Made by a program: the position numbers and the translations under genes. Below are positions 11,771 through 51,716 of a DNA stretch of 64,000 nt, one piece after another. This DNA is from Lunularia cruciata (lineage: Eukaryota > Streptophyta > Marchantiopsida > Lunulariales > Lunulariaceae). The stretch covers positions 17,112,001 to 17,176,000 of the forward strand of contig OX419760.1 of assembly GCA_948567375.1 (NCBI GenBank). The letters are read 5' to 3'. The notes beneath the pieces were generated by a model. It saw only the letters and a list, made by a program, of their open reading frames with translations. It was not told the origin of the DNA and did no database searches. The number at the start of each line of letters is the position of its first letter. The first letter of the stretch is position 1.

Positions 11771-11773
11771 GAT

Positions 11774-13539: not shown

Positions 13540-13918
13540 TGTCCTTTTGGAAGTCCTTCCACTCAACAAACCTCACACAACTCCTTGGTCTTAGATCTTC
13601 TTCCTCCCAATCTTGGCAAAGAAGGTCCAACATGCAGACCCAAGTCAAGTAAGCCTCTCCTTTCTCTCAATCTCTTGCTCTCAAAGGTCAATGGACATGA
13701 ACTTGACTTAGGTGTTAACTTGAACTTCCCTTCTCTCTACATAGAAAGCACTTAGACTTACTCTTTCTTCCAAGAGGCGTAGGTTTTTGGATCCTTGCAA
13801 CACTCTCTTCAAATTCTATTGTAAACTCTATTTTCCTCAAATCCACCCCTACAATCACTTTAAAAAACCCTTTGGGAACCTTGCATAGTCTCAATTTCCA
13901 CTCTTGATGACCCTCCAT
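13540..13918 (-). pseudogene. A2 copy of upstream zinc ORF
   Basis: The minus-strand counterpart of the 165-aa ORF at 15623-16120. It begins MEGHQEWKLRLCKVP and is similar to the end of that ORF, but is broken. It shows the upstream ORF was present in the ancestor of A1 and A2. Confidence 0.7.
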
Positions 13919-14093
13919 GTTCCCAAGATGAATCTAAACATTCAAACATGCTTTTTGTTGCTCTCAAACTCCTCATGCATGAGATCTCAACTTTGCAAAA
14001 TTTATCCTTCCTCACAATTTCACTCAAATCTCTCAACTAATCTATGATAGTCCTCTGAAATTTTGCATACTTGATCACAACTCTAGGGTGTCC

Positions 14094-14785: not shown

Positions 14786-14789
14786 TTTT

Positions 14790-14807
14790 TGGTTCCGTTG
14801 CCGGGAC
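14790..14807 (+). other. Primer-binding site of A1 (tRNA-Asp-like)
   Basis: tggttccgttgccgggac lies four bases after the 5' LTR. It resembles the complement of the plant tRNA-Asp 3' end (TGGCGCCGTTGCCGGGGA) with a few mismatches. tRNA-Asp-type sites are known in Ogre/Tat and Athila elements. The same site occurs at 57390-57407 and, decayed, after the A3 LTR at about 45754. Confidence 0.6.
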
Positions 14808-14826
14808 CTCTCTAGAAGGCAAGATA

Positions 14827-14997
14827 ATGTTCCGCGTCCAATTCTACATTAGGCAGAAGGAGGCTATGAGAGCTCACTTGGAGAGAACATTAGGAGAGGA
14901 GAGGGCTGAACTTATGTTAGAGAACCAAGATCCATTTGTATACCCTGTAGTTCATTATGATGTCTTTGAGGTGATTTTGTACATCTTGTACACATGA
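14827..14997 (+). CDS. Leader small ORF (56 codons)
   Basis: The first ATG after the primer site opens a 56-codon frame ending PFVYPVVHYDVFEVILYILYT. This end resembles the end of the 54-codon ORF at 16123-16287 (PFVFPRVDYSQMVLVMYILY). It could be an upstream ORF that modulates translation, or a non-coding leader. Repeated unchanged at 57427-57597. Confidence 0.35.
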   Translation: MFRVQFYIRQKEAMRAHLERTLGEERAELMLENQDPFVYPVVHYDVFEVILYILYT

Positions 14998-15622
14998 GAG
15001 GAATTGGAGAGATTGTGTGAGGTGGATTGCAGATTTTGGGGATTAAGGTGATTTTGGGCAAAATCTCAAGTTTGAGATCTGGTCTTGAGATTTCTACACA
15101 TGATAGCTTGGGTTATCTTTCAGTTAGCACACTTCAAATTATTGAGAGAGCTTTTATGCGCACTGGGCTAGAATTTTTGAAAGTTGATAGGGTAAAGTGC
15201 TCCCGCAACTGCATGCTCTCTGGAAAATTGTACAGAGTCCGCCATTTCTTCAATTTTTAGTGAATTGTCCTGAAAATTTCCAAGAAAATTTAGTGCATTG
15301 TATCCTACCTGGTGCCACAAAAAATTAGAGAGAGATTATTTTTTCGCAGTGCGTTATGAGTTTTTGAAGTGAGGGGGGTGGTTTTCAGACCAAATCTGAA
15401 ATATGGGTGCTGAATAGAAAGGTGTCTAGGCCAAATGGCTCGATGAAAAGATCTAAAATTTTGCAGGGAGGGACGCCCTGGAGTTCTGATCAAGTGTGGA
15501 AAATTTCAGAGGACTGTAACATATTTGTTGGGAGATTTGAGTGACATTGTGAGGAAGGGTCAATTCTGCAGAGTGGAGATCTCATGCATGAGAAGTTTGA
15601 GATCAACAAAAAGCATGTTTGA
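14998..15622 (+). other. A1 untranslated leader
   Basis: About 600 bp between the leader ORF and the zinc ORF. It contains an open stretch at 15027-15260 with no recognised motif. It is homologous to the decayed leader in A3 (about 46560-47230). The A2 copy breaks off at the equivalent of 15471. Confidence 0.6.
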
Positions 15623-16120
15623 GTGTTTAGATTCATCTTTGGGAACATGGAGGGTCATCAAGAGTGGAAATTGAGATTATGCAAGGTTCCCCAAGGGTTT
15701 GAGGTGATTGTAGGGGTGGATTTGAGGAAAAGAGAGTTTACAATAGAATTTGAAGAGAGTGTTGAGAGGATCCAAAAACCTACACCACTTGGAGGAAAGA
15801 GTGAGTCTAAGTGCTTTCTATGTGGAGAGAAGGGACATAAGGCAAGTTCATGTCCATTAACCTTTGAGAGCAAGAGATTGAGGGAAAGGAGAGGCTTACT
15901 TGACTTGGGTTTGCATGTTGGACCTTCTTCACCAAGATTGGGAGGGAGAAGATCTAAGACCAAGGAGTTGTGTGAGGTTTGTGGAGTTGAAGGACTTCCA
16001 AAAGGACATGAGTGTAGTGGAGTAAAAGCACTTTTGGAAACTTTGGTGAAGGATCTTGGAGAGAGTCTTAGTACAGCTACAGAAATACTACCACCTTCAT
16101 CAGCTAGTTCTCAAGATTAG
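15623..16120 (+). CDS. Upstream zinc-knuckle ORF of family A (ORF0)
   Basis: A separate 165-codon frame before gag, of unknown function. An internal start MEGHQEWKLRL nine codons in is also possible and is the first Met kept in A2. Around residues 64-77 there is a canonical CCHC knuckle (CFLCGEKGHKASSC) and at about residues 116-130 a second Cys/His cluster (CEVCGVEGLPKGHEC). Between them is a basic, Gly/Arg-rich stretch. The two zinc motifs suggest nucleic-acid binding, perhaps a nucleocapsid-like or RNA-handling role distinct from the knuckle in gag. Extra ORFs before gag are known from Ogre-type elements, but I do not recognise this one. Fossil copies lie in A2 and A3 (47230-47737), and an identical one at 58223-58720. 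Confidence 0.75.
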   Translation: MFRFIFGNMEGHQEWKLRLCKVPQGFEVIVGVDLRKREFTIEFEESVERIQKPTPLGGKSESKCFLCGEKGHKASSCPLTFESKRLRERRGLLDLGLHVGPSSPRLGGRRSKTKELCEVCGVEGLPKGHECSGVKALLETLVKDLGESLSTATEILPPSSASSQD

Positions 16121-16122
16121 TG

Positions 16123-16287
16123 ATGGAGATAATCTTTCAACTTATGGATAAATTATCCATGAGAGTTAGATTAATATGCACTCTAGGATTTGATGTTGCT
16201 ATAGAAATCTTGGAGCAACCTGAACCTTTTGTGTTCCCTAGAGTGGATTATTCTCAGATGGTGTTAGTCATGTATATACTCTATTAG
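16123..16287 (+). CDS. 54-codon ORF between ORF0 and gag
   Basis: Starts two bases after the ORF0 stop, in a different frame, and encodes MEIIFQLMDKLSMRVRLICT followed by a hydrophobic C-terminal end (MVLVMYILY). It is kept open in A2 (13261-13425). Function unknown. The tight spacing after ORF0 would suit reinitiation, but that is inference. It may be only a leader segment. Confidence 0.4.
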   Translation: MEIIFQLMDKLSMRVRLICTLGFDVAIEILEQPEPFVFPRVDYSQMVLVMYILY

Positions 16288-16355
16288 TAATAGAGTGAGA
16301 GAAAAGAAAAGAGAAAAAAAAAATTAAGAGAAAAGAAAGATAGTGAGGGGTTAAG

Positions 16356-19300
16356 ATGGGGAAACTTCCGGTTTTCTTTGGCAAGGATGGAGAAGATGTG
16401 GAGGCCTTTGTGAGAGACTTCAAGAGAGCTTGCATAGGAAACAATGAGAGGAGGAAGAATGAGTGGGCCTCATTATTACCAGATTTCTTTGAGGATGCAG
16501 CACTTACATGGTATGAGTCAGAATACCAAAAGAGAGAGAGGAGAGAGGGGGAAGAGGAGTCTTGGGAGACTTTGACTTCAGCACTCATTGAGAACTTTCT
16601 TCCTGATGAGAGTTATGAGAGATTGATGAGTGAGGTTACATTTCTCAAGCAAGGAGATGGAGAGAAAGTGAGGGTCTATGTGGAAAGAGTGGAAAAGTTG
16701 GAGTCCAGATTTCGCATAGTGTTGAGGAAGGGTGGGGATGATGTGGAGACTACAATGATTGGCATAGGGGCCATGCTCACCAAGAATTTTGTGGGAGGAT
16801 TGAGACCACAAATTAGAAGCAAGGTGAGATATGAGAAACCTTCTTCCAAGGTTGAAGCTATCAAGATCGCAATTCGTATGGAGGAGAGTTTGGAAGGGGA
16901 TGAGAGTGATTTGGTGGTGAAGGAGGTTGTGCATCCTCCTCAAGGCTACAAGTATGGTGGAACTTCTGATACTTTGGTGACAAGGGTTGCACCACAAGTA
17001 GTAGTTACTCCAATTCTTGCACCTCCACCAAAAGATCCACTCCAAACCATCACAGAACAACTTGCGGATCTCAAGATCAATGTGGTGCAACTATGGGAGA
17101 AGAGAGAGGTGGATCAGAATGTAGGGAGAGGACCTAGGAGTTATGGAAACTATCCATATAGAGGAGGCCAACCAGCCAACAATTTCAATGATAGAAATTG
17201 TTTTGGTTGTGGAGGAAGAGGCCATATCCAAAGGAATTGCCCAAATTCCACTTACCATGGAGGAAGGGGTTATGAGGGAGCCAATAGAGGGAAAGAGGGA
17301 GGTAGTGAAACCCAAGTGGCTCCTAATCCCAACAAAGGTAAGGGGATAGCATCCATAGATGTGGTTGAGAGCAAGTATGAGAAGGGAGAGTGCTCAAACT
17401 CCAAGGGTCTTAATTTGGAGCTTTTGGCACAAGAGAAGAAGAGAGCTCGTTTTGCAGAGGATGTTCACTCTTCTCAAGGATTTACTTCAAGCAAGGATAC
17501 TCCTATGTCTACTAGGAGCACTCGCACCTCAACACCATCAACAACAAAGACTCCAAGGAAGAAGTTGGGGATGGAGGACTTCTTGATCTCAAAGCAACAA
17601 TGGAACTACAATGTGTTGGAGGATGTTGGTAGTCACAAGGCTAACATCACAGTGGGCCAATTAATTGCTTTGAACCCTACCTTGAGAAAGGAGCTTAGAG
17701 GTGGTTTGAGTTCTACAAGGAGCAAAAAGAAGAAGAAGGCAAAAGTTCCAGTATCAATGGGGGTGGTGGATGCCAAGCCAGCACCATGGGAGGCTTGTGA
17801 ATATGCCTCCAAGATTGATGTGAGAGTGAATGGTCACAACATCAAGGATGCATTGGTTGATGGAGGATCAGCAGTGAATGCCATGTCAGAAAGGTTGATG
17901 AAGAAGTTGGGTATGATACCCTCAAGACCTTCAACATTTGTGGTGAGCATGGCAAACAAGCAACAAGTTCGACCAGTAGGGGTGATGGATAAGGTGGTAG
18001 TTTCAGTTATGGGAGTTCAAAATCTCATGACTTTCCAAGTCTTGAAGGATTCAAGCTATGACTTACTTCTTGGGAGGCCATGGTTGAGAGCAGCACGCAC
18101 AACTGATCGATGGCACAAAGGGTACTTGAGGATTGGGCCATCAAACCATAGAGTCATTGTTCCTGTGACTAACACCACCAACACTTCACATTCAGATACC
18201 CCATCTTCTAATTATTGGGAATCAGATTCTGAAGAAGGAGCTTCAGGTGTGGACACAAGCATGGAAGAGGAGACTTCCACGGAGGAAGATGAATCTGAAT
18301 CTGATTCAGATGTGTATCCCTTGTGTGCTATGGATTTTGCACCTAAGCCAGAGGTTTTGAAGGACCCAGATAAATCACCATTGACACTTGAGGAGGTAGA
18401 GAGAAGGTTATCTACCCTCAAGTATGGCCCAAATGTTACCAAGGAGGAGAAGGTGAGATTTGAGGAGATTTTCCGCAAGTTCATCCATGTGTTTGCTTTT
18501 AGTTACAAGGATTTGAAGGAAGTCACCTTGGAGGAGCACAAGATAGAGGTGGAGTCACATGCAAGACCAATCCGCCAAAAGCAACGTCGCATTAGCCCAC
18601 CAATATCTTTGGTTGTGAAGGAGGAGATTGATAAGCTCAAGGAGGCTGGATTTATCTTTGAGGTGGAGAATTCAGAATGGGTGTCTCCAATTGTCATTGT
18701 GAAGAAAAAGAATGGCAAGCTTCGGGTATGTGTGGATTACAAGAAGCTCAATGCTGTTACCAAGAAGGACTACTACCCATTGCCATTCATTGATGAGATC
18801 TTGGAGGAGGTTGCAGGTCATGAGAGGTACAGTTTTGGAGATGGTTATAGTGGATATAACCAAATCAAGATTGCACCAGAGCATCAACAACTCACCACAT
18901 TCACCACACCTTGGGGAACTTACGCTTTCAAGGTCATGCCTTTTGGGCTTTGCAATGCTCCAGCCACATTCCAACGGTTCATGAACAAGGTATTTGAACC
19001 TTTCATTGGGAAATTTGTGAGAGATTTCATTGATGACTTTTGTGTCTATGGGAGCAAGGAGGAGCAATTTGAGCACCTAATCAAAGTCTTGCAACGCTTG
19101 GATGAGGCAAATGCATCACTCAACCCAGAGAAGTGCATTTTTGGATGTGAAGAAGGTCTACTTTTGGGGCACATCATCTCCAAGGATGGAATAGCAGTTG
19201 ATCCTGAGAAGGTGAGGAAAATCTCAGACCTTCCATTCCCTTCAAGCTTGACAAAGTTACGCCAATTCTTGGGAATGGTTGGGTACTATAGGAGGTTCAT

Positions 19301-21182
19301 CTTCTCATTTTCCAACAAGGCTTATGCATTGACCATCTACATGAAGAAGGGTGTAGATTACATGGTGATTTTGGAAGACAAGGAGGCTCTCAAAGCTTTT
19401 GAGGAGCTCAAGCAATCCCTTGTTGTAGCTCCAATTCTTGCTAAACCTGATTGGAGTAAGCCTTTCATCCTCTACACTGATGCTTCTAATGTAGCTATAG
19501 GATGCACTCTTAGTCAATTAGACCAAGATGGGCATGATCATCCAATAGCTTATGCTAGTAGGCAGATGGTTTCAGCAGAGAAGAACTACTCTGTCACAGA
19601 GAGAGAAGGGTTGGCAGTGATCTTTGGTCTCAAGAAGTTTAGACACTACTTGATTGGAGGGAAAGCCACAATTGTCACGGATCACAAGGCTTTGAAGTAC
19701 ATCTTCAACAAGCCTAATGTTGAAGGGAGACTAGCAAGGTGGATGATTCTCTTGTCTGAGTATGACTACACAATTGAGGATAGGCCAGGAAAGAAACATG
19801 CAAATGCTGATTTGTTATCTAGAGCCTATGATCATGATGGAGATGAGCCAGTAGATGATTCCTTCCCGGATGAGGAGCTCATGACAATCTCAGTCACTCA
19901 AGAGGTTCCAATGGAGTACAAGGAGATTGTGGATTTTGTGACAAGAGGTAACTATCCCGAAGGGATGCATGCTAGGGAGAGGAAGGCCCTTGCAGCAAGA
20001 TCTAGACCTTACACAATGGTGGATGATATTCTTTTTCACCAAGGAGCAGATGGTCTACTTCGAAGAGCAGTGGGTAAGGAAGAGTCTATCCTACTCATAA
20101 AGGAGTTTCATGAAGGTTTAGTATGTGGAGGACACTTTGCAGGAAAGGTGACTGCTTTCAAGATTCTAGATGCAGGTTACCATTGGAGAGGGATTTTCAA
20201 GGATTGTCTTGATTATTGCAAAACTTGTCATGTTTGTCAAGCTTTTGCTAGAAAGTCTACATCCACTCCACCACTTAGATCAATTCCATTGCTAGGACCC
20301 TTTGAGAAGTGGGGAATTGATTTTGTAGGACCTCTCAATAGAACCCCAAGGAACAATCGGTACATTGTGGTAGTTACTGATTACCTTACCAAGTGGGTTG
20401 AGGCTAGACCATTGAGGGACAAGAATGAAGATGAAGTGGGTAGATTTCTTTATGAATGCATTATCACTAGGTTTGGATGCCCTTTGGAGTTGGTTTCTGA
20501 TAGAGGAGGAGAGTTTACAGGAAGCATTACTACAGCCATGCTACGACATTTCTCTATCACACATCGAGTAACTACATCCTATAAGCCAAATTCCAATGGC
20601 TTGGCAGAGAGAACCAATCAGACCTTGTGCATGATGTTGGCCAAAGATGCAGAAATGGAGGGGGCTAAACATCATTGGGACAAGAGGATTCATGCAGTTT
20701 TGTGGGAGTATAGGACAACCATGAAGACTTCCACTGGATATTCTCCATTCCAATTGGTGTATGGTATTGAGTCTACCTTACCTATTCACTTTGATCTTCC
20801 TACCTTCCAAAGCATTCATAGGAGATTGAAGAAAGCACAAGGAAGTGATGCAGAGAAGTCAAGGAAGGATCAACTCATGGAGTTGGAAGAGGCAAGAGCA
20901 GTTGCTATGGTTCGAGTGGAGCAAGCCCAAAGGAAACAAAAGGAGAGCTATGACAAGAGGCAAGGCAAGAAGAAGGTGGAGCCTTTCAAAGAAGGTGATT
21001 GGGTAATGTTGTTTGATTCCATTCGATTCAAGAGAGTACAAAAGAAGTTTTTGCCTAAGTACTTTGGACCTTTCATAGGAGAGAAGGTGTGGGGAAATTA
21101 CACTTATGATCTCAAGGAGTTGGGAGGAAGACACTTTGATAGGATTAACCATGATAAGTTGAAGATGTACCATAGAAGGTAG
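16356..21182 (+). CDS. Family A gag-pol polyprotein
   Basis: A single uninterrupted 1608-codon frame. Order by approximate residue: gag core (10-130); CCHC zinc knuckle (282-295, CFGCGGRGHIQRNC); Ser/Thr/Lys-rich linker; retropepsin with loop VDGGS near 501-505; acidic Ser-rich linker; reverse transcriptase (about 730-960) with polymerase motif FIDD at 891-894; RNase H from about 1035 (YTDAS, Asp 1042); integrase zinc region (about 1250-1300); integrase core with WGIDF, LVSDRGGEF and NGLAERTNQ; C-terminal GPF-type module ending at the stop. There is no chromodomain. It supplies particle protein, maturation, cDNA synthesis and integration. The start was chosen as the first Met after the leader, conserved in A2. 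No gag/pol boundary stop exists, so both would be made as one precursor. Confidence 0.95.
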   Translation: MGKLPVFFGKDGEDVEAFVRDFKRACIGNNERRKNEWASLLPDFFEDAALTWYESEYQKRERREGEEESWETLTSALIENFLPDESYERLMSEVTFLKQGDGEKVRVYVERVEKLESRFRIVLRKGGDDVETTMIGIGAMLTKNFVGGLRPQIRSKVRYEKPSSKVEAIKIAIRMEESLEGDESDLVVKEVVHPPQGYKYGGTSDTLVTRVAPQVVVTPILAPPPKDPLQTITEQLADLKINVVQLWEKREVDQNVGRGPRSYGNYPYRGGQPANNFNDRNCFGCGGRGHIQRNCPNSTYHGGRGYEGANRGKEGGSETQVAPNPNKGKGIASIDVVESKYEKGECSNSKGLNLELLAQEKKRARFAEDVHSSQGFTSSKDTPMSTRSTRTSTPSTTKTPRKKLGMEDFLISKQQWNYNVLEDVGSHKANITVGQLIALNPTLRKELRGGLSSTRSKKKKKAKVPVSMGVVDAKPAPWEACEYASKIDVRVNGHNIKDALVDGGSAVNAMSERLMKKLGMIPSRPSTFVVSMANKQQVRPVGVMDKVVVSVMGVQNLMTFQVLKDSSYDLLLGRPWLRAARTTDRWHKGYLRIGPSNHRVIVPVTNTTNTSHSDTPSSNYWESDSEEGASGVDTSMEEETSTEEDESESDSDVYPLCAMDFAPKPEVLKDPDKSPLTLEEVERRLSTLKYGPNVTKEEKVRFEEIFRKFIHVFAFSYKDLKEVTLEEHKIEVESHARPIRQKQRRISPPISLVVKEEIDKLKEAGFIFEVENSEWVSPIVIVKKKNGKLRVCVDYKKLNAVTKKDYYPLPFIDEILEEVAGHERYSFGDGYSGYNQIKIAPEHQQLTTFTTPWGTYAFKVMPFGLCNAPATFQRFMNKVFEPFIGKFVRDFIDDFCVYGSKEEQFEHLIKVLQRLDEANASLNPEKCIFGCEEGLLLGHIISKDGIAVDPEKVRKISDLPFPSSLTKLRQFLGMVGYYRRFIFSFSNKAYALTIYMKKGVDYMVILEDKEALKAFEELKQSLVVAPILAKPDWSKPFILYTDASNVAIGCTLSQLDQDGHDHPIAYASRQMVSAEKNYSVTEREGLAVIFGLKKFRHYLIGGKATIVTDHKALKYIFNKPNVEGRLARWMILLSEYDYTIEDRPGKKHANADLLSRAYDHDGDEPVDDSFPDEELMTISVTQEVPMEYKEIVDFVTRGNYPEGMHARERKALAARSRPYTMVDDILFHQGADGLLRRAVGKEESILLIKEFHEGLVCGGHFAGKVTAFKILDAGYHWRGIFKDCLDYCKTCHVCQAFARKSTSTPPLRSIPLLGPFEKWGIDFVGPLNRTPRNNRYIVVVTDYLTKWVEARPLRDKNEDEVGRFLYECIITRFGCPLELVSDRGGEFTGSITTAMLRHFSITHRVTTSYKPNSNGLAERTNQTLCMMLAKDAEMEGAKHHWDKRIHAVLWEYRTTMKTSTGYSPFQLVYGIESTLPIHFDLPTFQSIHRRLKKAQGSDAEKSRKDQLMELEEARAVAMVRVEQAQRKQKESYDKRQGKKKVEPFKEGDWVMLFDSIRFKRVQKKFLPKYFGPFIGEKVWGNYTYDLKELGGRHFDRINHDKLKMYHRR

Positions 21183-21219
21183 AGAGACCTTCACTTTGAG
21201 GACAAAGTGAAAACTTAGT

Positions 21220-21230
21220 CCGGGGGTAAA
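21220..21230 (+). other. Polypurine tract of A1
   Basis: ccgggggtaaa directly before the 3' LTR, 38 bases after the gag-pol stop. Same sequence in A5 and A2. Confidence 0.75.
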
Positions 21231-21922
21231 TGTAACACCCATTTGTGCATGTGTGTGGTATTGTGATATTTAGCTTGGTATTACAAGTACTTAAGAGATA
21301 TTATTTATATAGAGATAAAGGATGGTTCTATATTAGTCATGGTTAGCTTAAGTTAGTCATAGCTAAGATAGATGGGACCTTACTTTAGAGGAAGTAGAAA
21401 AGATGAGCACCACTATTTTGGATTTTAGTGTGTTGACTTGGTATTATTCCTAGGTGTTTGGCTTTGGGGAAAGAGTTGAGAACTCTTGGGCCCGCAAGCC
21501 TTTTTGTTTTGGATTCTTCTTTAGTCCAAGGATAGCCCATGTGAAGGAATCCTTGCTTTAGTGGTTGGGTCAAGATAAGACCACATGCTTAGGGGAATAT
21601 GCCCATGTGAATGGATATTCCTTTCTACTTTTTGACTTTACTTGACTTTTAGTCTAGTAACTTGAGTTACTACGGTAATTAGTAACTTTGGTACGTAACT
21701 ATTTCACAAGTATATAAACAAGGAGTGAGGAGGTACTCATCATCCTTTCATTTGCAACTATCTCTCTCTCATTGAGTTCTCTAGTGAGCAATGTCTTGAG
21801 TCTTGGAGTGTTAGCCTTGGAGGAGTATGATGGAGTTGGGGTTCCTTGCCTTCTTAGTCCATGGTGCGCTACCATAATAGCCATCAGAGGTTCATCCTGA
21901 GTGAGAGACAGGCCGGCTCACA
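21231..21922 (+). repeat. 3' LTR of A1
   Basis: 692 bp, apparently identical to the 5' LTR. It is followed directly by RNase H coding sequence of element B rather than by A2 sequence. Confidence 0.96.
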
Positions 21923-23641
21923 GGCCATCGTAGTCGTATTAAGTCAGAAGGACAGAAAGAAGAAGGACTACCCGATGTATTATGCCAGCCGACAACTTTC
22001 AGTTTCTGAAAAGAACTATTTGACGACTGAAAGAGAAGCACTCGGAATGGTGTATGCCTGCAAGAGATTTTGTCATTATTTGTTGGGGTATGATTTTGTC
22101 TTCTATGTTGACCATTACGCATTGCAACATTTGGTCAAGAAGGCAGATTTATCGTGACAAATTGCAAGATGGATCTTGTTATTACAAGAGTTCATGTATA
22201 TTGTACAAGTAAGGAAGGGGTCTTCGCATTTGAATGCGGACTTCCTGTCCAGGTTAAAGACTCAAGACCAAGAGTGGGAAATTGACAATCGGTTCCTGAC
22301 GAAGAGTTGTATCACTTATCAGCAATGCAAAGTACGAGGTATGCAGCTGAATATAATTATCTGAATACTCTTCATTGTCATGAGGGGATGGACCCGGAAT
22401 AGCGGGCAGTCTTTCTTAGGAAGATGGGGCCATACCAGCTTAAACATAGCATTTTATTTAAGATGGGCAAAGACGAAGTACTTCGGCGATGCTTGGAGTC
22501 ATACGAAGTAGGAGGAGTAATTGAATCTTTACACTCCAAGGCATCGAGAGGACACTATGCTCTGAAGAATACTGTAAAGAAAATTCTTTTGGCAGGGTAT
22601 TGGTGGCCTACAATGTACAAAGATGTACATGCTCATATCCAAAGCTGTGATGCTTGTCAGAGAACGGGGAAGCCGACGGCTACTTCTCAATGGTCTTTGA
22701 GACCAATTTTGCCTTTGGCCCCATTTGAGAAATGGGGGATTGATTTTATGGGCCCCATTCAACCAGTGACCCGAGTCACAAGAAAGCGCTACATTTTGGT
22801 TTGCACTGACTATGCTACCAAGATGGTCGAAGCGGAAGCAACTCGCAGAGATGATGCGGAAACTGTGGCGGAATTTTTCTTTCGAAACATCATCTCCCAA
22901 TATGGGTGTCCTCTGGAATTGGTCAGTGACCGGGCACACATTTTTTGAACTCAGTAATGGAGGCGTTAACCAAGTACTTTCAGATTGAACATCGAAAGGC
23001 GACTCCTTACAACCCAAAAGCAAATGGCTTAACGGAAAAAGCGAATGGGTTACTTTGTAAAATTTTGAATAAGGTGATTGTCAATTATGCCTATGACTGG
23101 GATACGAAATTACCAGCCGCGTTGTGGGCATATCAAACGACAGAGAAGATTACAACCAAACAAACTCCATACTTCTTGACATATGGCTTGCATCCCATAC
23201 TGCCAGTTGAATTTGAAGTTCCGACATATCGGGTTCTGTGCAAAGAACGAATGTTGGAGGAAGAAAGTCAGGATCTTCGGATTCATCAACTAATGTGGTT
23301 AGAAGAGAAAAGAGACGATGCAATGCAAACCATGAAAGAAGTACAAGCATAGAGGAAAGTCAGGCACGATAAGAGAATCAAGCCTATGACTGTACAAGAA
23401 GGGGATTTGGTTTTGTTATATGACAATTGCCGAATATTTTTTCCAAGCAAGTTGCATTTGAGATGGATGGGTCCCTATCGAGTTCTTCATCTTTACAAAA
23501 ATAGATCCATGCAGCTCATCAACTTCGAAGGTAATCCTTTTGCCACTCGAGTAAATGGGTGGAGAGTTTGGAGATATTGGACCATAGACTCGGAAGTTTC
23601 TAAGACACCCGAGATCTATGTTCGTGGGGACGCTCATATTT
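21923..23641 (+). pseudogene. B1 RNase H and integrase
   Basis: RNase H blocks: YYASRQLSVSEKNYLTTERE, YVDHYALQHLVKK and LNADFLSRL (to about 22250). Integrase zinc region: HYALKNTVKK...CDACQRTGK (about 22550-22680). Core: WGIDFMGP, CTDYATK, YNPKANGLTEKANG (about 22730-23050). C-terminal module around 23386-23580 (WMGPYRVLHLY). Close to the non-chromovirus plant gypsy group. Broken in a few places. Confidence 0.88.
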
Positions 23642-23654
23642 GAGGGAAGGGGTA
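23642..23654 (+). other. Polypurine tract of B1
   Basis: gagggaaggggta directly precedes the LTR start TGTGGTGCTCACA, about 60 bases after the last integrase-module coding sequence. This marks the following 3.8 kb as the 3' LTR. Confidence 0.75.
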
Positions 23655-24067
23655 TGTGGTGCTCACATTTTTTGTTTTTTTCAGAATAAAGGAGAAGAAG
23701 TGTATAGAGAAGTCGGATTGTGCCTGTATGGCCGAAGAATGCACAGAAAAGAGTCTTCGGGTTGAAAGCTGAAGTAAAGTGACTTCGGGTCATAAGGCAA
23801 AGTACTTGGAAATGCCCTGTCAGCATACAATACAAAGTAAATTGTCTTCGGATCGGGGGGAGCTCAACCCGAGGCAAAGATAGTCTAACAACCTTTTGTT
23901 GAGGCAAGAAATTCAAGAAGGGGCCGTTTCAAAATTGGCGGCTCATACGCACGAAGGTTGATTGACAGTGACAAGTGCATGCCGGAGGTGTGATTTCTCG
24001 ATAGAAACTCGAAGTGACGGAAGACGAAGAAGCACAACTCTATTAAAATCAAAACTGCAACGACAAA

Positions 24068-25321
24068 ATGTTGAGCAATTTTCCTGCACCGTTGAGGAGT
24101 CATCTTGTAGGTGATCGGGGAAAGGGAAATAGAGTTGGGCTCGTGTTAGTGCGGAAGGAAGAAGTCGTGAGAGTGAAATTGAGAGAAACTGAGAAAGCAG
24201 AAGAGATGGGAGGAGGGAACAAGAACTCCAAATTTGCAATGAGAAATCATGCGATTTGGAGATTAGATGTAGTAGCAAGGATTGAAGTCTTGAGCCGACT
24301 TCGGATCACCTTTCTGGCATGGAACTGGAACGTAAGTTTTCTAGGATTCATGATAGAGATCATTGAGAGTAAGTGTCTCGATGGACCCGAGGAGGAAGGG
24401 AAGAGAGGAAATCCGGCTCGCTGGACAGAGTCGGATTGGAGGCTCATACTCGGGAAGGAGGCAGGCTTGGAGCAAGGAGCCACGTTCTTGGGAAAAGGAG
24501 AGATAGCCCAAGAAACTCAAGAGGTGAGAGATGCCTTCTTGTCAAAGAGAACAAAGAATGGGTATAAGGTAGAAAGTTACAAAGACCCTGTCAAGAGAGG
24601 AATTGTGAGTGCTTTGATGGCAATCCTGAAGCCAAAGAGAACAACATATGTGATGAAACACCAAGCAATGTTCTTTCACAAATTGTTTGCAGGAGAACCA
24701 ATTAATTGGGCGAGGTGTTTTCACAGGAGAACAAGGCAGATGGTGTGGAATCTGCGGGATAAGTTGCCTCCACATTACATTGTGCCGTTTGCAGCACACT
24801 TCTACCTTGGGCTCAATTTGCTGAACTCGGCGGAGCGGAATCAGATGGTGTCGCACTTCCATCCTGATGTGCGAAAGGAGGTCGATGTCGAGGAGCAACA
24901 ATACATTCTCCAAATCCGGAGCACGGATGACTACTACGCGAAGACAGGGAAAAATATGGAAGTTGTAGTGAGTACCCCGACAAAGAAGAGGACTCGGCAA
25001 GCAGAAGCCAAAGAAAACAAGAAACCTTGGAAGATGCAGAGAAGTAACCCGAGGCGAGGAATGGTGGTAATTGAGTTAGAAGATGAAGACTCAAAAGGCG
25101 AGGCCGAGCTCAAGACGGAGGACTCGGAGCATGAGGAGGAACCTGAGCTGACACTACAGAGCGGAGATACAAGCAATGATAGTGAGGATGGTGGAAAGAT
25201 GACCTCAGCGCCAATGGCTGAAGAATACAAAGAAGAAGTGCAAGCCGAGGTAGAAGCCGAAGACAATACAGTGCTGGAAGATGAAGTACCGGTGCCAAAG
25301 GAGAAGAAGATCGCAATATAG
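24068..25321 (+). CDS. U3-encoded ORF of element B, function unknown
   Basis: A 417-codon open frame entirely inside the LTR, starting about 410 bases after the LTR edge. Residues about 40-310 look globular: basic N-terminal part, then LAWNWNVSF, an ARWTESDW block, and a Trp/Phe/His-rich helix-like segment with HQAMFFHKLF, GEPINWARCF and AAHFYLGLNLL. After about residue 330 it becomes strongly acidic (Glu/Asp/Ser-rich). I see no signal peptide, transmembrane segment or enzyme motif, so it does not look like an envelope protein. In the full-length RNA it would be the third ORF, after pol, the position of retroviral nef or MMTV sag. The block is similar to the decayed copy at 48290-49249. What it does is unknown; capture of a host gene or an old gag-like module are both possible. 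Confidence 0.75.
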   Translation: MLSNFPAPLRSHLVGDRGKGNRVGLVLVRKEEVVRVKLRETEKAEEMGGGNKNSKFAMRNHAIWRLDVVARIEVLSRLRITFLAWNWNVSFLGFMIEIIESKCLDGPEEEGKRGNPARWTESDWRLILGKEAGLEQGATFLGKGEIAQETQEVRDAFLSKRTKNGYKVESYKDPVKRGIVSALMAILKPKRTTYVMKHQAMFFHKLFAGEPINWARCFHRRTRQMVWNLRDKLPPHYIVPFAAHFYLGLNLLNSAERNQMVSHFHPDVRKEVDVEEQQYILQIRSTDDYYAKTGKNMEVVVSTPTKKRTRQAEAKENKKPWKMQRSNPRRGMVVIELEDEDSKGEAELKTEDSEHEEEPELTLQSGDTSNDSEDGGKMTSAPMAEEYKEEVQAEVEAEDNTVLEDEVPVPKEKKIAI

Positions 25322-26640
25322 CAAGGAGTTTGCTTGCAACGTAAGGCAAAGTGTGAGGCGGGACCGAGTCGAGTGAAGGCAGAGGTAGAAGAAAGCTTGG
25401 GTAGTGAGGCATCAATCCCGATACGAAGACTCTAGAGAAGAAGGCGAGTATCAGGAGAACACGAGGAGAAAAGAGAGACCACTCTGCGGGAGGAAGAAGT
25501 TGCCAGTGATGGAGTGGAGTACCTGCGAGAAGTAGTGTGCCCGCTGTTGGTGAAGTTGGAGCAGAAGAAGAAGGAGATGCAGTTGACTTGTCCCGAGGTA
25601 AAGACTGTATTGCATGTGGTAGCAAGATTAGAAGAAGAGAACTTGGAGTTGAAGAGGAGTGTAACCCGAGGTGAGGAGGAGAGTGAAGTACTGCAAGCAG
25701 AGGCAGTAGAGAAAAGTCAGGTAATTGAAGACCTGAAGAGGGAAGTGAGCTATCGAGAGGATCTTGCGAGGAAGAGTGATATCGCAAGAGAGAGACAAGT
25801 AGCTGAATACGAAATCTTGAAGCAGCAGTTTGCTGATTCAGGGTAGAGCTTATTCATGCTATGGCAAGGGTAGCAGCAAAGGATCAAGAGCTTGATAGAG
25901 TGAGGGAGAGTATGGAGGAGAAGAAGCAACTCTGGCAACGAGAGTGGGCTGCAAGATATAGAGAAGAAGAGAGATTACGAGAGTTACTTCGTAATCAAGA
26001 AGAGAAGGTTGTCCAGAAAGAGAAGGAGAAGGAGTCGGTGAAAGCCGAATTTGAGGAAGAGTTGGCAATGTACAGAGAGGAATGGCTTGCAGATCTAGAA
26101 CAAGAAAGGAAGACAAGATTGGAGCCATTGCAGGAGCTAGTCCTCTCAGAGTAAACGCAATGTTAAGTACAGAGGCCAGCGTTTGAATTGAAGAAGCGCG
26201 ACTGCACAAGTGAAGTTGTTGGTGCAGGAGACAAGGTGAAGACAAGCAAAGGACACTAAGATGAACGCCCTGTTAATAAAATTAAGAGCTCGTGTCGATA
26301 GAAAGGTTTTGGAGGTAGAGGATAACATTTCCATTAGATTAGACTTAGTGAAAGTAGAGCTAGAAAAACTTCGGAGGGATACTAAAGCAAAACCTGAAGT
26401 AGATAACATAGGAGTGCAAATGTCTTTGGAGTTGCCATAGAGACATAGAGAAGAGTGGGTCAGGAGATAAGGAGTTAGAAAGATTACCCACTAGCGGAAT
26501 TTCAGATCAGGAAAGAGAATTGCTTGATCTGGTAGAAGAAGTAGAAGATCTGAAACCCGAGGACAGAGTAGTAGGAAGTAAGATTACTTCAGGTTCGGGT
26601 TTGAAAGCCGAGAAGAAGTAGACATTGGATCGGAGTAGTT
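25322..26640 (+). pseudogene. Coiled-coil coding stretch of the B1 U3
   Basis: Downstream of the 417-codon frame, open stretches at 25514-25846 and 25861-26154 encode Glu/Lys/Arg/Leu-rich peptides with the heptad look of long coiled coils (for example REEERLRELLRNQEEK). The same stretch is present in B2 (about 49834-50938, with a 211-codon open piece at 50006-50641). It looks like further coding DNA of the U3 region, now broken. Whether it belonged to the same protein cannot be told here. Confidence 0.6.
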
Positions 26641-26753
26641 GACCAATTTGAGATTTGAAGGGGCAGATATGAAGAGGTGCATTGTCATTTCGGATCTGCA
26701 GGTTAGAACAGTTGTTGTAGAAACGGTATAGTTGTTAGAACTGTCGATTTGTT

Positions 26754-26819
26754 CACTACTTAAGAGTGGCATTTGTAGTCAAATGTTGTTCAGTGCTCAT
26801 ATTTCTGAGAATAAATAAA
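26754..26819 (+). promoter_or_regulatory. Promoter-like and poly(A)-like signals of the B LTR
   Basis: A ctacttaag stretch (ctatttaag in B2 at about 51054-51062) sits 50-60 bases before aataaataaa (26810-26819). The order suits a U3 TATA box followed by an R-region poly(A) signal. Inference from position and sequence only. Confidence 0.4.
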
Positions 26820-27432
26820 GCAAAGTGCTGTGAAGCAGTGCTCGTCGCTTGAGCTTGATTCCGAGTATCAACTTTGTGATTGTGTTTGTGAGTGTTTGGA
26901 GAAATTCAAAGTGCAAGTCAGTGTGCTTGTTGGATGTTAGATTCCACAGCCTTGATCTTCATTCTATGTGTTTGATCCTGAGTGAAGTGCAATCGGAGCA
27001 ATGCCTTGACAGATCTGAGAGGAATTGTAGTGTTGGTAGTATTCTGCATTTGTGAGTGCAGTGCGAAGTTGATGTGAAGCAATTTTGATCGAGGAAGTTG
27101 TGCCTTCAGTGGAGGGGTGGAAAACAATTTTGAGGCGAAGTCGTTTTGCAATGAAGTGCTGTTTTTGGAGAGCCTGAATCATCACAATCAAGATTGTTTG
27201 GAAAGATTTGATGGATTTGTGATTAAGGAGTGTGAATTTGTGACAAGACTGCGAGTTGGTGCTTGTTACTCTCTTCTGGGTGTGGTTTTCTACCTGAGAG
27301 ATTAAAGACACAACCAAGAAGAACTAAATTGTTACTTTGCTTCATATTTTGGACATTTTTGAATCGTATCTCTATGGAACAAACTTTACTTACCTGATTA
27401 CTGCAAAAGTGATATTTGCCGGGGTTGTCACA

Positions 27433-28189: not shown

Positions 28190-28826
28190 TCAAGTCATAG
28201 ACAACAATTGCCAACTAAGCATGAGCAGCCAAGTGCGGTGCACTCTTGAGGCAAAAAACCCCACAATAGCATCTACAAGTGCTAACATCACATTTAAGCA
28301 ACTATGGGAGGACAACAAGTTGTACAAGAAGTAATTGAGTTCAGCCCCTCAAGAAAGTAAGGGTGATGACCAAGAAAGACTTGCACAAAATTTATCGTAT
28401 TGAACAAGAAGATTTAGGATCTCCCAAAGTGGATGCGGAGATCATAGGGTGCATGATAACATCCATACCCATTGATTCGGGGTCAAGTGTGAATGTCATG
28501 ATAGAAGACACTGCACATCAATTGGGGTATACAACGTTTAAACCAACACTCCAAATTCTGAAATTTGCGGATCAAACCAGGCGATGGCCTTTGGGCATGC
28601 TGTCAAATATTACTATGATCAGGAGGGAGTGCCCTTCAAGTTGAGTTACATTGTGTTGCGATCAGTAACCAAACTGGTTACCCACTCTTGATGGGAAGAC
28701 CCTAGTTGTACAGCGCTCAGGTTATTATGGATTGGCACCAGCAAAATCTAAGGTTCAAGGATATCTCGTCTGAAGATCAGAAGCTTGTGACGGTGAGCTG
28801 GACAAAGGTTCCCCACCTCTGTTTAG
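28190..28826 (+). pseudogene. Ty3/gypsy gag-end and protease fragment
   Basis: An open stretch at 28363-28644 contains IPIDSGSSVNVM, the retropepsin active-site region of plant gypsy elements, followed by LGYTTFKPTLQILKFADQ. A further protease-end-like block lies near 28680-28760. It ends abruptly at B-type LTR sequence. Probably an internal fragment of a B-related element; broken. Confidence 0.65.
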
Positions 28827-29267
28827 TGCTCATAATTCTTAGCATAGATAAAACAAAGTGCTATGAAGCAATGCTTATCTCTTGAGCTTAGTTTGGAGTA
28901 TCAACTCTACATTTGTTATTGTGAGTGTGTGGAGAATTTCAAGTGCAAGTGAGTGTGCATGTTGGATNNNNNNNNNNNNNNNNNNNNNNNNNNNNNNNNN
29001 NNNNNNNNNNNNNNNNNNNNNNNNNNNNNNNNNNNNNNNNNNNNNNNNNNNNNNNNNNNNNNNNNNNNNNNNNNNNNNNNNNNNNNNNNNNNNNNNNNNN
29101 NNNNNNNNNNNNNNNNNNNNNNNNNNNNNNNNNNNNNNNNNNNNNNNNNNNNNNNNNNNNNNNNNNNAACATTGGACTTGTATTTGGAAATTTTTGTCCA
29201 GTATCTTTGAGGGAACAAACTTAACTTGCTTGATTATTGCAAAAGTGATATTTGCCGGGTTGTCACA
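28827..29267 (+). repeat. B-type LTR end, interrupted by the scaffold gap
   Basis: gtgctcataattctta...gatAAA and the following 140 bases align with 26793-26935 of the B1 LTR, with clear divergence. After the gap the sequence ends tttgccgggttgtcaca, the B LTR terminus. It contains only the R-U5 side of an LTR. Confidence 0.75.
28968..29167. other. Assembly gap (200 N)
   Basis: Exactly 200 consecutive Ns, a typical placeholder length. True distance and order across it are unknown. It sits inside a repeated LTR. Confidence 0.99.
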
Positions 29268-29531
29268 AGCCTCTTTCAAGAAAATTGAATCATCACAATC
29301 AAGATTGACTTGAAAAGGATTTAAAGAATTGTGATTATGGGTGTTGTAATTTGTGACAAAATTGCAAATTGAGCTTATGGGTGTGGTTTCTACCAAAGAG
29401 ACTAAAGATACAATCAAGAAGAATTGATTGGTGACTTTACTTCAAATTTGACCAATTTTGACAAGTTTCTCTATAGGAACAAATAATTACTTATTGATTA
29501 CCACAAAAGTGATACTTGCTGGGTTGTCACA
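29268..29531 (+). repeat. Second B-type LTR tail in tandem
   Basis: Matches the last 270 bases of the B LTR (atcatcacaatcaagatt ... gggttgtcaca) and directly follows another copy of the same terminus at 29267. The two tails have diverged from each other. Confidence 0.75.
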
Positions 29532-30523: not shown

Positions 30524-30735
30524 ACCAAGTCAACACACTAGAATCCAAAATAGTGGTGCTCATCTTTTCCACTTCCTCTAAAGTAAGGTCCGCTCTATCT
30601 TAGCTATGACTAACTTTAGCTAATCATGATTAATGTAGAACCATCCTTTATCTCTATATAAATAATATCTCTTTAGTACTTGTAATACCAAACTAAATAT
30701 CACAATACCACACACATGCACAAATGGGTGTTACA
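30524..30735 (-). repeat. 5' LTR remnant of A2
   Basis: The last 212 bases match the start of the family A LTR on the minus strand (ending gggtgttaca) and are closest to the A2 LTR at 9000-9191, with about three differences. Element C protease follows at once, so this is the far edge of the A2 insertion in C. Confidence 0.88.
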
Positions 30736-31170
30736 TACTTCTCTTATTAGACCCATGAAACATCTATTAGTCTTGTAGATAGTTGTCATCCCTATGACAT
30801 ATAGAGACAATTCTTGCTTGTGTGATTTTTCTTTAACCCCAATGATTGACCATTGGTGGGTTCTCACTACTTTCTTCCTCCAATCTACCATAGGGTTGTA
30901 ATACTCCATCCATGGCATGCCTAAGATTGCATCATAATGAGCTAATTGTACCACTTGCCACTCAATTGCTTCTTGATATTCTCCTACAGAGAGTGTTACC
31001 CATCTAGGTAATGATTCAATCCTCTTTATTTGCGCGTTATTTAACTCTACTTCTTCACTCCCATCTCTCTCTAGATCTATTCCCAATCTTACTGCAATAG
31101 AGCAAGACAAGAAATTCTCTATTGCTCCCAGATCTATTAATACTCTCACTTGATTGCCTTCTAGGACCAT
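30736..31170 (-). pseudogene. Element C protease
   Basis: A minus-strand frame with VRVLIDLGAIENFLSCSIA (retropepsin active-site region) and YDAILGMPWMEYYNPMVDW, the typical second half of a plant gypsy protease. It is cut at 30736 by the A2 insertion; the following pol lies at 8500 and below. Confidence 0.85.
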
Positions 31171-47937: not shown

Positions 47938-50900
47938 TGTGGTGCTCACATTTTTTGTTTTTCTTCAAAATGTGGAAGAAGAAGTGTATAGAGAAGTTGA
48001 ATTGCGCCTGTATGGCTGAAGAAGGCAAAGAAAAGTGTCCTCAGGATGAAACCCAAGGTAATGTGGCTTTGGGTCATAAGGCAAAGTACTCGGAATTGCC
48101 TTGTCAACGTACAACCTGAAGTAAGGAGTCTTCATATTGGGGGTGCTCAACCTGAGGTGAGGACAGTGTAATAGCTTTCCTTTGGGGCGAGAGATTCAAG
48201 AAGGGACCGTTCAAAAATGGCGGTTATATGCATGAAGGACACTTGACAATGATAGGAGCATGCATGAGGTGTGATGTCTTGGTAGAAACTTGAATTGCAG
48301 AAAGACAAAGAAGGCACGACTCTATAAAAAGTGGGCTAAAGATGAAGTGATGACAAGCAATTTTCCCTTGCCGTTAAGAAGTCATCTTGTAGGAGATTGT
48401 GGGAAGGGAAGTAGAGTCAAAGATGCGTTGGTGTGTAGAGGAGAATTTGAGAGAGCTAATCCAGGAATCAGTAGGAAGAATAGTCCACAACCCAGAGTGG
48501 AAGAGAGAAAGATGGGAGGAGGGAAGAACAACTCAAAATTTGCAATGAGAAATCATGTGATTCGGAGGTTAGATGTGATTGCAAGAATTGAAGTCTTGAG
48601 CAGACTTTGGATCACATTCTTGGCGTGGAACTGGAATGTAAGCTTTCCAGGGTTCATGACTGAGATCATTGAGAGTAGATGTCTTGATGGCCCCGAGGAA
48701 GAGGGGAAGAGAGGTAATCCGGCTCGTTGGACGGAGTCAAATTGGAGGTTAGTACTCGGAAGAGAAGTAGGCACGGAGCATGGTGCCACGTTCTTGGGGA
48801 AGGAAGAAGTAGCAGAAGAAATCCAAGAGGTGAGAGATGCTTTCTCTTCGAAGCGCACAAAGAATGGTTAAAAAGTAGAGAGTTACAAGGATCCTGTCAA
48901 GCGAGGGATCGTGAGTGCTCTAATGGCAATCTTGAAGCTAGAGAGAATGACTTATGTGATGAAGCACCAAGCGGTGTTCTTCCATAAGATGTTTGCAGGA
49001 GAACCGATTAACTAGGCAAAGTGTTTTCATGGGCAAACAAGATAGATGGTATGGAATTTGTGGGATAAATTGCCTCCGCATTACATTGTGCCATTTGCAT
49101 CTCATTTCTATCTAGAGCTGAACTTGCTCAATGCGGCGGAGCGCAACAGGATGGTGTCGCATTTCCATCTTGACTTAAGAAAAGATATTGATGCGGAGGA
49201 GCAACAATACATTCTTCAGATCAGGAGCAGCGATGAGTACTACATGTAGACAGGGAAGAGTGTACAGTTGGACGTGAGTACTCCAAAGAAGAGGAGTTGA
49301 CAAGGAGAAGGAGAAGACATGGAGAAAGTAAGACCTTGGAAGACTAGAAGAGTAAACCCAAGGAAAGGTATGGTGGTAATCACATTGTTGGAGGAAGAAT
49401 CAAAAGGTGAAGCCGAGTGCAAGTCCAAAGACTCGGAAAGAGATGAAGAACCCAAGCTCACACTATAGAGTGGAGACATGAGTAGTGATAGCGATGATGG
49501 AGGGGAGATGACATTGGTACCCAAGGAAGAGAAATCCACGATGGAGATAAAGGAGAAAGGTAACTCAAAGTTGGAAGACGAAGTGCCAGAGCAGGAAGAA
49601 AGGAAAGTTACCATTCAACATGGAGTTTGTTCTAGGCAAAAGGTGAAGTGTGAAGCAAGGCCAAGTAAGGTAAGAGAAGAGGAGAATGAAAGTTTGGGGA
49701 GTGAAGCATCCATTCCTATACGGTGACTGCGGCTCAGAAGGCGAGTGTCAAGTGAAGAAGAGGTGAAGAAGGAGATCACTCCGCAAGTCAAGGTAACTTT
49801 GAGTGAAGGAGTGGAGTACCTGCGGGAGGTTGTGTGCCTCTTATTAGTGAAGTAAGAGCACAAGAAGAAGGAGATGCAGTCAAAGTGTCTGGAGGTGAAG
49901 ACTGTCTTGCAGGTGTTAGCACAATTAGAAGAAGAGAACTCAAAATTGAAGAAGAGTATAATCTGAGGTGCGGAGGAAAGGGAAGTACCATCAATAGATG
50001 CAATAGTGCAGCATCCAGTGCTTGAGAGTTTGAGGAGAGAAGCAAGGAATCGGGAGGAATTGATAGAGCAGAGTGTCATAGCAAAGGAAAGACAAATTGC
50101 TGAATATGAAATCTTGAAGCAGCAGTCTGTTGATTCACAACTAGAAATTATCCATGCTATGGCAAGAGCAGCAGAGAAAGAGCAAGAGCTTGATAGAGTG
50201 ATGGAAGGTGTAGAAGAGAAGAAGCAGCTATGGCAACAAGAGTTGATAGTGCGGTATAGAGAAGAAGGAAGGTTGAGAGAGTTACTTCGCAATCAGGAGG
50301 AAAAGATTGTGCAGAAGGAGAAGGAGAAGGAGAAGGAAGCTATGAAAGCCAAGTTCAAAGCAGAACTGGCAATGTACAAAGAAGATTGGCTTGCAGATCG
50401 AGAATGGGAAAGGAAAATGAGATTGGAGCCATTAAAAGAGATTGTGATCAAGATGAATGCAATGTTGAGTATAGAGGCTAGTATGCACATCAAAGAGATG
50501 AGGCTGCATGAGTTGAAGTTGTTGGTGCAGGAGACAAGGAGGAGAAATGTGAAGGACAAAGACTTGAATGCTTTGTTGATCAGTCTAAGAACTTGTGTAG
50601 ATAGGAAGATATTGGAAGTAGAAGACAATATCACAATCTGATTAGACTTGGTCAAATTAGAAATAGATAAACTTCAGAAGGATGTCTGAGAAAAACCCGA
50701 AGTAGATGAAGTGGGAGTGCAGATGTCTTTGGAGTTACCATTGGAGACATTAGAGAAGAGTGGGTCGGGAGATAAGGAGTTAGATAGATTACCCGTTAGT
50801 GGAATTTCAGATCAGGAAAGAGAATTGTTAGATTTGGTAGAAGAATTAGGAGTTGTGAAACTCAAGGATAGAGTAGTAGTGAGTGAAGTTACTTCGGGAT

Positions 50901-51711
50901 TGAAAGTCAAGGAAGAAGTAGATATCAGATCGGATTAGTAACAAACTTGAGATTTGAAGAGGCAGATACAAAGAGGTGCATTGTCATTTCGGATCTGTAG
51001 GTTTGTAGAGTTGTTAGGAAATGGTATAGTTGTTAGAACTGATGTTTGCTTCGCTATTTAAGAGTAGCATTTGCTGGAAATTGTTATCTAGGGCTCATAA
51101 TTTCTAAGAATAGATAAAGTGAAGTGTTGTGAAGCAGTGCTTGTTGCTTGAGCTTGATTCCGAGTATCAAATTTTTGTTTGTGTTTGTGAGTGTGGGGAG
51201 AAATTTAAAGTGAAAGTCAGTATGCTTGTTGGATGTTGGATTCCACAGCCTTGATCTTCATTCTATGTGTTTGATCTTGAGTGAAGTGCAATCAAAGCAA
51301 TGCCTTGACAGATCTGAGAGGAATTGTAGTGTTGGTAGTATTCTGCATTTGTGAGTGCAGCGCAAAGTTGATATGAAGCAATTTCAATGGAGGAGTGGAA
51401 CACAATTTTGTGGCAAAGTCATTTTGTAGTGAAGTGTCATTTTTGGGAGAGCCTGAATCATCACAATCAAGATTGTTTGGAAAGATTTGATGGAGTTGTG
51501 ATTAAGGAGTGTTATTTTGTGACAAGATTGCAAATCAGTGCTTGTTACTCTCTTCTAGGTGTGGTTTCTACTTGAGAGATTAAAGACGCAACCAAGAAGA
51601 ACTACGTGTTACTGTTTGACTTTGTATTTGACCAATTCTGACTTGTATCTCTGCGGGACCAAAGTTTACTTACCCGATTACCGCAATAATGATATTTGCC
51701 GGGTTGTCACA
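47938..51711 (+). repeat. Solo LTR B2 of family B (3774 bp)
   Basis: TGTGGTGCTCACA to GGGTTGTCACA, homologous along its entire length to the B1 LTR. It lies inside A3, with A3 sequence resuming on the other side. Flanks aaaga (47933-47937) and aaagg (51712-51716) are a 5-bp target duplication with one change; the empty site in A1 reads gaaagatagtgag. No internal region remains. It differs from B1 by about 6-10% by eye. Confidence 0.92.
48290..50940 (+). pseudogene. Decayed U3 ORF in solo LTR B2
   Basis: Open pieces at 48290-48871, 49046-49249 and 50006-50641 encode peptides clearly similar to the B1 U3 coding stretch: the SKFAMRNHVIRRLDV block, PPHYIVPFASHFYL, an acidic part and a long coiled-coil part (REEGRLRELLRNQEEK). 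A few disruptions. Two independent LTR insertions carrying the same coding stretch show it is a family trait. Confidence 0.75.
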
Positions 51712-51716
51712 AAAGG

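Follow-up and report, generated by a model that had tools for sequence, protein, structure and literature searches.

We analysed a 64,000-nucleotide stretch of the genome of Lunularia cruciata (contig OX419760.1, positions 17,112,001 to 17,176,000; hereafter the window), a liverwort in which the passages cited describe bursts of Ty3/gypsy elements (PMC12885004, PMC9985172). The window holds two long terminal repeats (LTRs) of a retrotransposon family that we call family B: one at 23655-27432 (LTR1), which adjoins a remnant of pol and a polypurine tract (PPT), and one at 47938-51711, which stands alone (the solo LTR). We show that family-B LTRs, about 3.78 kb in length, contain one protein-coding frame of about 816-862 codons. 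Our analysis suggests that this open reading frame (ORF) lies in the unique 3' region (U3) of the LTR, ahead of the repeated region (R) and the unique 5' region (U5). The features on which the argument draws, all on the forward (+) strand, are listed here, with copy counts referring to the 29-copy sample defined below.

21923..23640, +: family-B pol remnant (RNase H, integrase), from Pfam matches and reading frames; stops and frameshifts break the reading
23642..23654, +: PPT adjoining the 3' LTR, from the sequence
23655..27432, +: 3' LTR of family B (LTR1), aligned end to end at 77% identity with the solo LTR 47938-51711
23667..23684, +: T-rich tract and CAG, resembling a splice acceptor
24041..24048, +: TATA box within U3, mutated in LTR1 (TATTAAAA); TATAAA in 27 of 29 LTRs
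24068..25321, +: stretch of the U3 ORF that is open in LTR1 (417 codons), from the ORF list; ATG intact in 29 of 29 copies
24068..26638, +: whole family frame of about 860 codons, interrupted in LTR1 by premature stops and indels; mapped from solo 48350-50938
24206..24208, +: alternative start at codon 47 (Met-Gly-Gly-Gly); ATG intact in 29 of 29 copies
25493..26341, +: region coding for the long helix, its approximate position carried over from the solo copy
26757..26763, +: TACTTAA, a TATA-like box that is probably the genomic promoter, from the 29-copy tally
26787..27432, +: probable R-U5; blastn similarity of the older piece at 28820 begins at 26787
28820..29531, +: older family-B R/U5 pieces (28820-28967, 29183-29267, 29286-29531), from blastn; a gap of 200 N lies among them
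47938..51711, +: solo LTR belonging to another subfamily of family B, between AAAGA (47933-47937) and AAAGG (51712-51716)
48323..48328, +: TATAAA ahead of the solo-LTR ORF, from the sequence
48350..50938, +: 862-codon frame in the solo LTR, with 11 in-frame stops and no frameshift

Upstream of 23655 the order is RNase H, integrase, the final stop codon of pol and the PPT, which the left edge of LTR1 follows directly. Pfam searches of the pol remnant matched RT_RNaseH (1.7e-19), Integrase_H2C2 (4.8e-13) and rve (7.4e-6, below the curated cut-off); the remnant lacks its 5' part, and an element of another family, family A, ends directly before it at 21922. LTR1 extends from TGTGGTGCTCACA (from 23655) to TTGTCACA (to 27432), and both of its edges match the edges of the copy at 47938-51711. 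That copy sits inside a family-A element, and it is a solo LTR because its flanks rejoin an uninterrupted family-A relative, with AAAGA repeated as AAAGG, a 5-bp target duplication with one mismatch. An earlier note on this DNA had read 23655-27432 as a gypsy LTR, a reading borne out by the pol and PPT upstream and by the second copy with matching borders. By the position of RNase H before integrase and by its LTR features (TG...CA termini, target duplication, PPT and primer site), family B is a Ty3/gypsy LTR retrotransposon.

The same note had set a 417-codon ORF apart from a downstream stretch coding for a coiled coil. We find that the two are one gene, because a single frame spans both and an excess of third-position differences between LTR1 and the solo LTR runs through them, starting near the ATG, reaching about codon 800 and vanishing beyond the terminal stop. 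The 417-codon open frame is real, but a separate 417-codon protein is not, since the family frame spans about 860 codons; the TAG at 25319 that closes the shorter frame occurs, among 32 aligned LTRs, only in LTR1 and in its duplicate L017, and LTR1 and the solo copy have no stop in common across 842 aligned codons. The frame can be divided into codons 1-46, whose inclusion is doubtful, a core (47-300) rich in Trp and His, an acidic linker (301-480), a long charged helix (481-765) and a short tail (766-862), so that the Trp/His-rich and acidic parts described earlier are present as core and linker.

The frame recurs in the host assembly, which comprises 565,766,749 bases in 74 contigs. When the best 100 of 25,857 first-look candidates for the ORF were scored, the 99 matches besides the query showed 85-98% identity, and all 53 copies scored with the whole frame (the top 53 among 33,639 first-look candidates; they include the solo copy) match most or all of it in one reading frame. 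From among the best 100 ORF matches we fetched 44 loci, comprising 13 solo LTRs with 5-bp duplications (12 exact, one with one mismatch), 6 LTRs with a primer site after them, 11 with a PPT before them, one with both, and 13 that are truncated, enlarged or unresolved. Two of these loci, L009 (with the primer site) and L010 (with the PPT), are the two LTRs of one element; they lie 9.95 kb apart, measure 3,780 bp each, have diverged by 3.9% and are flanked on the outside by GTTAC and ATTAC. Both contain the frame, as the earlier note had proposed to check for a full-length element. No Pfam chromodomain, the mark of chromoviruses, was detected after the integrase, either in the 422-aa integrase frame of L010 or in the pol remnant of the window. 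The primer site reads TGGCGCCGCTGCCGGGGA in most LTRs that have one and resembles tRNA-Asp; a tRNA-Asp primer site is, along with the phylogeny of the reverse transcriptase, a mark of the Athila/Tat group.

Additionally, the pattern of the PPT-LTR junction occurs at 1,393 places in the genome at no more than 2 mismatches, and a reversed-pattern control at none. Ten LTRs were chosen by this junction alone, taken from the listed exact matches on contigs C1, C2 and C6 rather than from all 1,393 places. The frame is present in all ten, several of them frameshifted, so that the search for family members without it came to zero of ten in this sample; two of the ten, with about 53% protein identity, form a third and deeply separated subfamily that likewise shows a third-position excess. 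The ORF lies downstream of the PPT in the 12 PPT-bearing loci of the 44 and in all ten junction-sampled LTRs, and inside the 13 solo LTRs. The LTR borders, tested for excluding the ORF, include it in LTR1, in the solo copy and in the genome loci. Two of the fetched sequences deserve separate mention. L017 (G000:C10:14413700-14418000) is a 98.5% copy of LTR1 that shares its right flank 2.7 Mb away, and the locus itself was therefore duplicated. At L011x/L012 (G000:C1:81047600-81062100), where the two LTRs have diverged by 0.9%, an LTR with a PPT before it and a primer site after it indicates tandem elements sharing an LTR.

Variation within the frame bears the marks of selection. We aligned 32 LTRs, namely the two in the window and 30 loci, 14 of the 44 having been dropped for truncation or insertions. 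Tallies over 29 copies exclude L017, which carries the flank of LTR1, and L010 and L012, each the second LTR of an element; tallies over 28 copies exclude the solo subfamily as well. Between LTR1 and the solo LTR, 842 codons differ at 159, 146 and 332 first, second and third positions (p 9e-23), and the ratio of nonsynonymous to synonymous rates (dN/dS) is 0.15 by NG86, 0.17 by maximum likelihood, 0.23 by LWL85 (bootstrap 0.17-0.28) and 0.27 by YN00; an earlier NG86 estimate of 0.12 was biased low because of many transitions. By part, the ratio is 0.09-0.13 in the core (four methods), 0.15-0.31 in the helix (three) and 0.37-0.80 in the tail (four). Pairwise dN/dS alone is no proof, because one of the three frames of the non-coding R-U5 also gave a low ratio of 0.35 (0.23-0.55).

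The stronger tests are the codon-position and shared/private tallies over 28 copies of the main subfamily. Variants found in at least three copies are distributed 171/133/344 over the three codon positions (p 4e-26) and variants private to one copy 203/177/230 (p 0.03), while shared variants in the non-coding controls are distributed 32/33/33 (5' U3) and 38/32/52 (R-U5, p 0.075). Relative to expectation, the ratio of nonsynonymous to synonymous changes is 0.37 for shared and 0.92 for private variants (Fisher p=2e-20), a contrast not seen in the other two frames. Variants common to copies thus carry the signature of purifying selection and private variants are near-neutral, as expected of a gene that is selected while elements multiply and decays within each insertion. 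A dN/dS near 1, for which we tested, was found neither between subfamilies (0.15-0.27) nor, by the corresponding ratio, among the shared variants. In a separate comparison, R-U5 (26787-27432 vs 51086-51711) is 11.6% different between the two window LTRs, below the fourfold sites of the ORF (74/179) and the 5' U3 (24%), and has therefore been constrained or exchanged.

Candidate transcription signals lie on both sides of the frame. The upstream TATA box reads TATAAA in 27 of 29 copies, as TCTATAAAAAT in 25, and is found in 8 of 10 junction-sampled LTRs; its 10-nt windows are among the most conserved of the 405 in the 5' U3. The downstream box reads TATTTAA in 23 and TACTTAA in 5 of the 29 copies (28/29). 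Similarity between the older piece at 28820 and the LTR is confined to the part from 26787 onward, which begins about 30 nt past the downstream box; a poly(A)-like signal, AATAGATAAAG or AATAAATAAAG across copies, is located at 26810. Because the downstream box lies after the ORF and the 28820 piece starts where R would be expected, the ORF appears to lie in U3, provided that the downstream box is, as we infer, the genomic promoter. The earlier note had placed TATA-like and poly(A)-like signals after the coding part and the ORF in U3. The signals do lie there, the U3 location is supported given a promoter at a box kept in 28 of 29 copies, and a second TATA box, within U3 and upstream of the ORF, is now added. 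The route that the note gave for nef and sag, access only as the 3'-most ORF of the RNA, need not apply to family B, since this U3-internal box would offer another.

As to the protein, AlphaFold2 run on the single sequence of the solo counterpart at 50006-50638 predicted one 176-residue helix (residues 4-179) with a predicted local distance difference test score (pLDDT) of 87.6. No significant 3.5-residue heptad periodicity was found in the helical stretch, and the stretch may therefore form either a coiled coil or a charged single helix; of the long coiled coil proposed earlier, the long helix is retained as a prediction and the heptads are not. The 417-aa ORF had no match at E<=10 among 5.8 billion proteins (within word-match limits; 5,459 candidates), nor did the 862-aa reading of the solo frame among the same proteins (7,985 candidates scored). 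The profile and structure-based searches suggested by the earlier note were run with similar outcome: Pfam, searched with single copies and with sets of 17 and 7 relatives, gave a best E of 0.11, to other families (0.13 for the helical piece), a scan of NCBIfam with the frame product found no relative, and solved structures gave nothing better than E 0.1, with seven weak matches, all to other proteins. Homology to Nef or Sag was seen neither in Pfam nor in solved structures, and viral and prokaryote contigs held no confirmed relative of the frame. A likeness between the core and the domains that Pfam names 'putative plant transposon protein' was considered, and no scan supported it.

It is tempting to hypothesize, and we consider it reasonably probable on the sequence evidence, that the frame is a U3 gene cassette that is selected during multiplication of the element, decays after each insertion and encodes a probable trans-acting accessory product. 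The TATA box 0.4 kb into U3 would start a transcript near 24072, about 30 nt past the box; such a start would miss the first ATG and make codon 47 the first in-frame one. The ORF transcript would end at the poly(A) signal in that LTR's own R, and the downstream TATTTAA box would drive the genomic RNA. A gene cassette would then be present in every LTR, be it 5', 3' or solo, and each round of reverse transcription would place copies of it at both ends of the element. The product would probably be an accessory protein acting in trans, in nuclear entry, in RNA or capsid handling or in relief from silencing, and the helix may mediate its assembly. With the U3 TATA box (27/29) at one side and the poly(A)-like signal in R at the other, each LTR may form a gene cassette of its own, which leads to a further proposal that we hold only tentatively: every LTR could be a self-contained gene, with its U3 TATA box, its frame of 816-862 codons and its poly(A) signal in R, so that solo LTRs would stay gene copies and thousands of units, a figure extrapolated from the 1,393 PPT-LTR junctions and from the proportion of LTRs that are solo, would have been seeded and would act in trans even without gag or pol.

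Several observations weigh against this explanation. All 32 LTRs read closely carry one or more premature stops, some with frameshifts in addition, and 33 of the best 100 ORF matches are free of stops in the 417-codon part (hand count). Some premature stops recur at the same codon, through shared descent or repeated mutation, and nine stop variants are common to at least three of the 28 copies; some lineages may therefore be spreading with a truncated product. Two of 29 and 2 of 10 copies, LTR1 included, lack the upstream TATA box. Constraint is also uneven along the frame: no codon-position signal was detected over codons 1-60 among the 28 copies (p 0.67; the LTR1-solo pair, however, has 11/14/19 differences over codons 1-50), the last 100 codons are weakly constrained (LWL85 0.445, bootstrap 0.24-0.95), and the 60-codon windows 301-360, 421-480 and 661-720, as well as the last one, are individually not significant. 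Finally, AlphaFold2 models of the 417-aa part from two sequences had a pLDDT of 32 and no usable fold; with no homologue and no usable fold for the core, the proposed function follows from architecture only.

Among the other explanations, the one that survives best, although we consider it unlikely, is that the ORF is expressed in the manner of nef or of sag of mouse mammary tumour virus (MMTV), from the 3' LTR only, through an RNA spliced from the 5' LTR to an acceptor at the start of U3. The T-rich tract with CAG, 30 nt into U3, is the sole such site on both strands of the window, and GTGAGT donor-like sites at 26888 and 27052, in R/U5, could serve such splicing; in MMTV, the 3' LTR encodes Sag from spliced RNAs whose acceptor lies just upstream of the ORF (PMC3026287). 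However, the criterion that singles out the tract was chosen after the site had been noticed, only 16 of 29 copies retain its AG, which the solo copy lacks, and four ATGs separate it from the ORF in LTR1. It is the lack of conservation of the AG that led us to demote this model. Under an alternative that we regard as improbable, the upstream TATA box is the genomic promoter, R is very long, and the ORF, contained in it, comes first among the ORFs of the genomic RNA. Conservation of that box in 27 of 29 copies fits this arrangement, which would allow translation without splicing, but about 2.7 kb of R would have to be copied before the first strand jump, and it leaves aside the second box, present after the ORF in 28 of 29 copies, about 30 nt past which the older LTR piece begins. 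We give equally little weight to the idea that the frame was acquired from the host or from a different mobile element and is kept for its own or the host's benefit rather than for retrotransposition. Resemblance to known proteins, from retroelements or elsewhere, was looked for and not found, as a captured gene might predict, yet the frame is in the LTR of ten out of ten junction-sampled copies and in subfamilies down to about 53% identity, and selection is seen on shared variants and hardly on private ones. Lastly, it is hardly credible that the frame codes for nothing and is open by chance in a purine-rich LTR: a coding strand with 65.8% purine does lower the frequency of stops, but none of 2000 first-order Markov simulations of the LTR reached an ATG frame of 417 codons (the longest had 182), and the codon-position and synonymous/nonsynonymous tests are positive against two wrong frames and two non-coding regions as controls.

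The remainder of the window offers some observations of its own. The segments 11233-21400 and 53833-64000 are a 10,168-bp repeat of 99.94% identity on the same strand, 42.6 kb apart and reaching the end of the window, which is either a recent segmental duplication or an assembly duplication. A family-A gypsy element at 14094-21922 has two identical 692-bp LTRs and an intact gag-pol frame of 1,608 codons, and is therefore a very recent insertion; the nearest protein to its polyprotein comes from Marchantia polymorpha (58% identity across 58% of the part used as query). Upstream of this gag-pol, an extra ORF at 15623-16120, repeated at 58223-58720, contains a CX2CX4HX4C knuckle recognised by eye. 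On the minus strand, at 30700-31170, a frame resembles, also by eye, the aspartic protease of another gypsy element.

LTRs are generally taken as regulatory sequences and routinely masked, and solo LTRs are normally read as dead scars. Lentiviral nef, by comparison, is an accessory gene in the 3' LTR. The comparison with nef and sag made in the earlier note holds for position, given the promoter assigned above: a coding frame in U3, in both LTRs and under selection. As with MMTV, whose LTR is about 1.3 kb and lengthened by sag in U3 (PMC3026287), the accessory frame of family B adds to the length of the LTR. Family B differs from these retroviral systems in being a plant Ty3/gypsy family, with about 860 codons in a 3.8-kb LTR and no sequence similarity found, and in having a poorly conserved splice acceptor and a TATA box of its own in U3. 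The extra ORFs of plant elements (aORF or eORF) are placed, in the passages cited, either ahead of gag or in the interval that separates pol from the 3' LTR (PMC7264820, PMC6317226, PMC11963269), and ORF2 of PvRetro13 has an SMC domain (PMC7264820). Like Grande gene23, RIRE2, Retand and PvRetro13, as these passages present them, family B carries an element-borne extra protein of unknown function in many copies; in contrast to their position in the internal region, its ORF lies inside the LTR, and in L010 the stop codon of pol ends 11 nt before the LTR. The Retrosat2/RIRE3 group of rice is described as having LTRs of about 3 kb or more together with an extra ORF (PMC3485330), but there ORF0 lies upstream of gag-pol, whereas the family-B ORF is in the LTR. 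Searched by title and abstract, with subscription journals mostly outside, the literature yielded no plant LTR-internal gene, in agreement with the earlier note, to whose knowledge no such ORF had been described in plant gypsy elements. A land-plant gypsy family whose LTRs hold a gene of more than 800 codons would parallel retroviral sag and nef. If our explanation is correct, LTR length becomes explicable by coding content, solo LTRs become gene copies, and U3-encoded accessory genes arose outside vertebrate retroviruses too.

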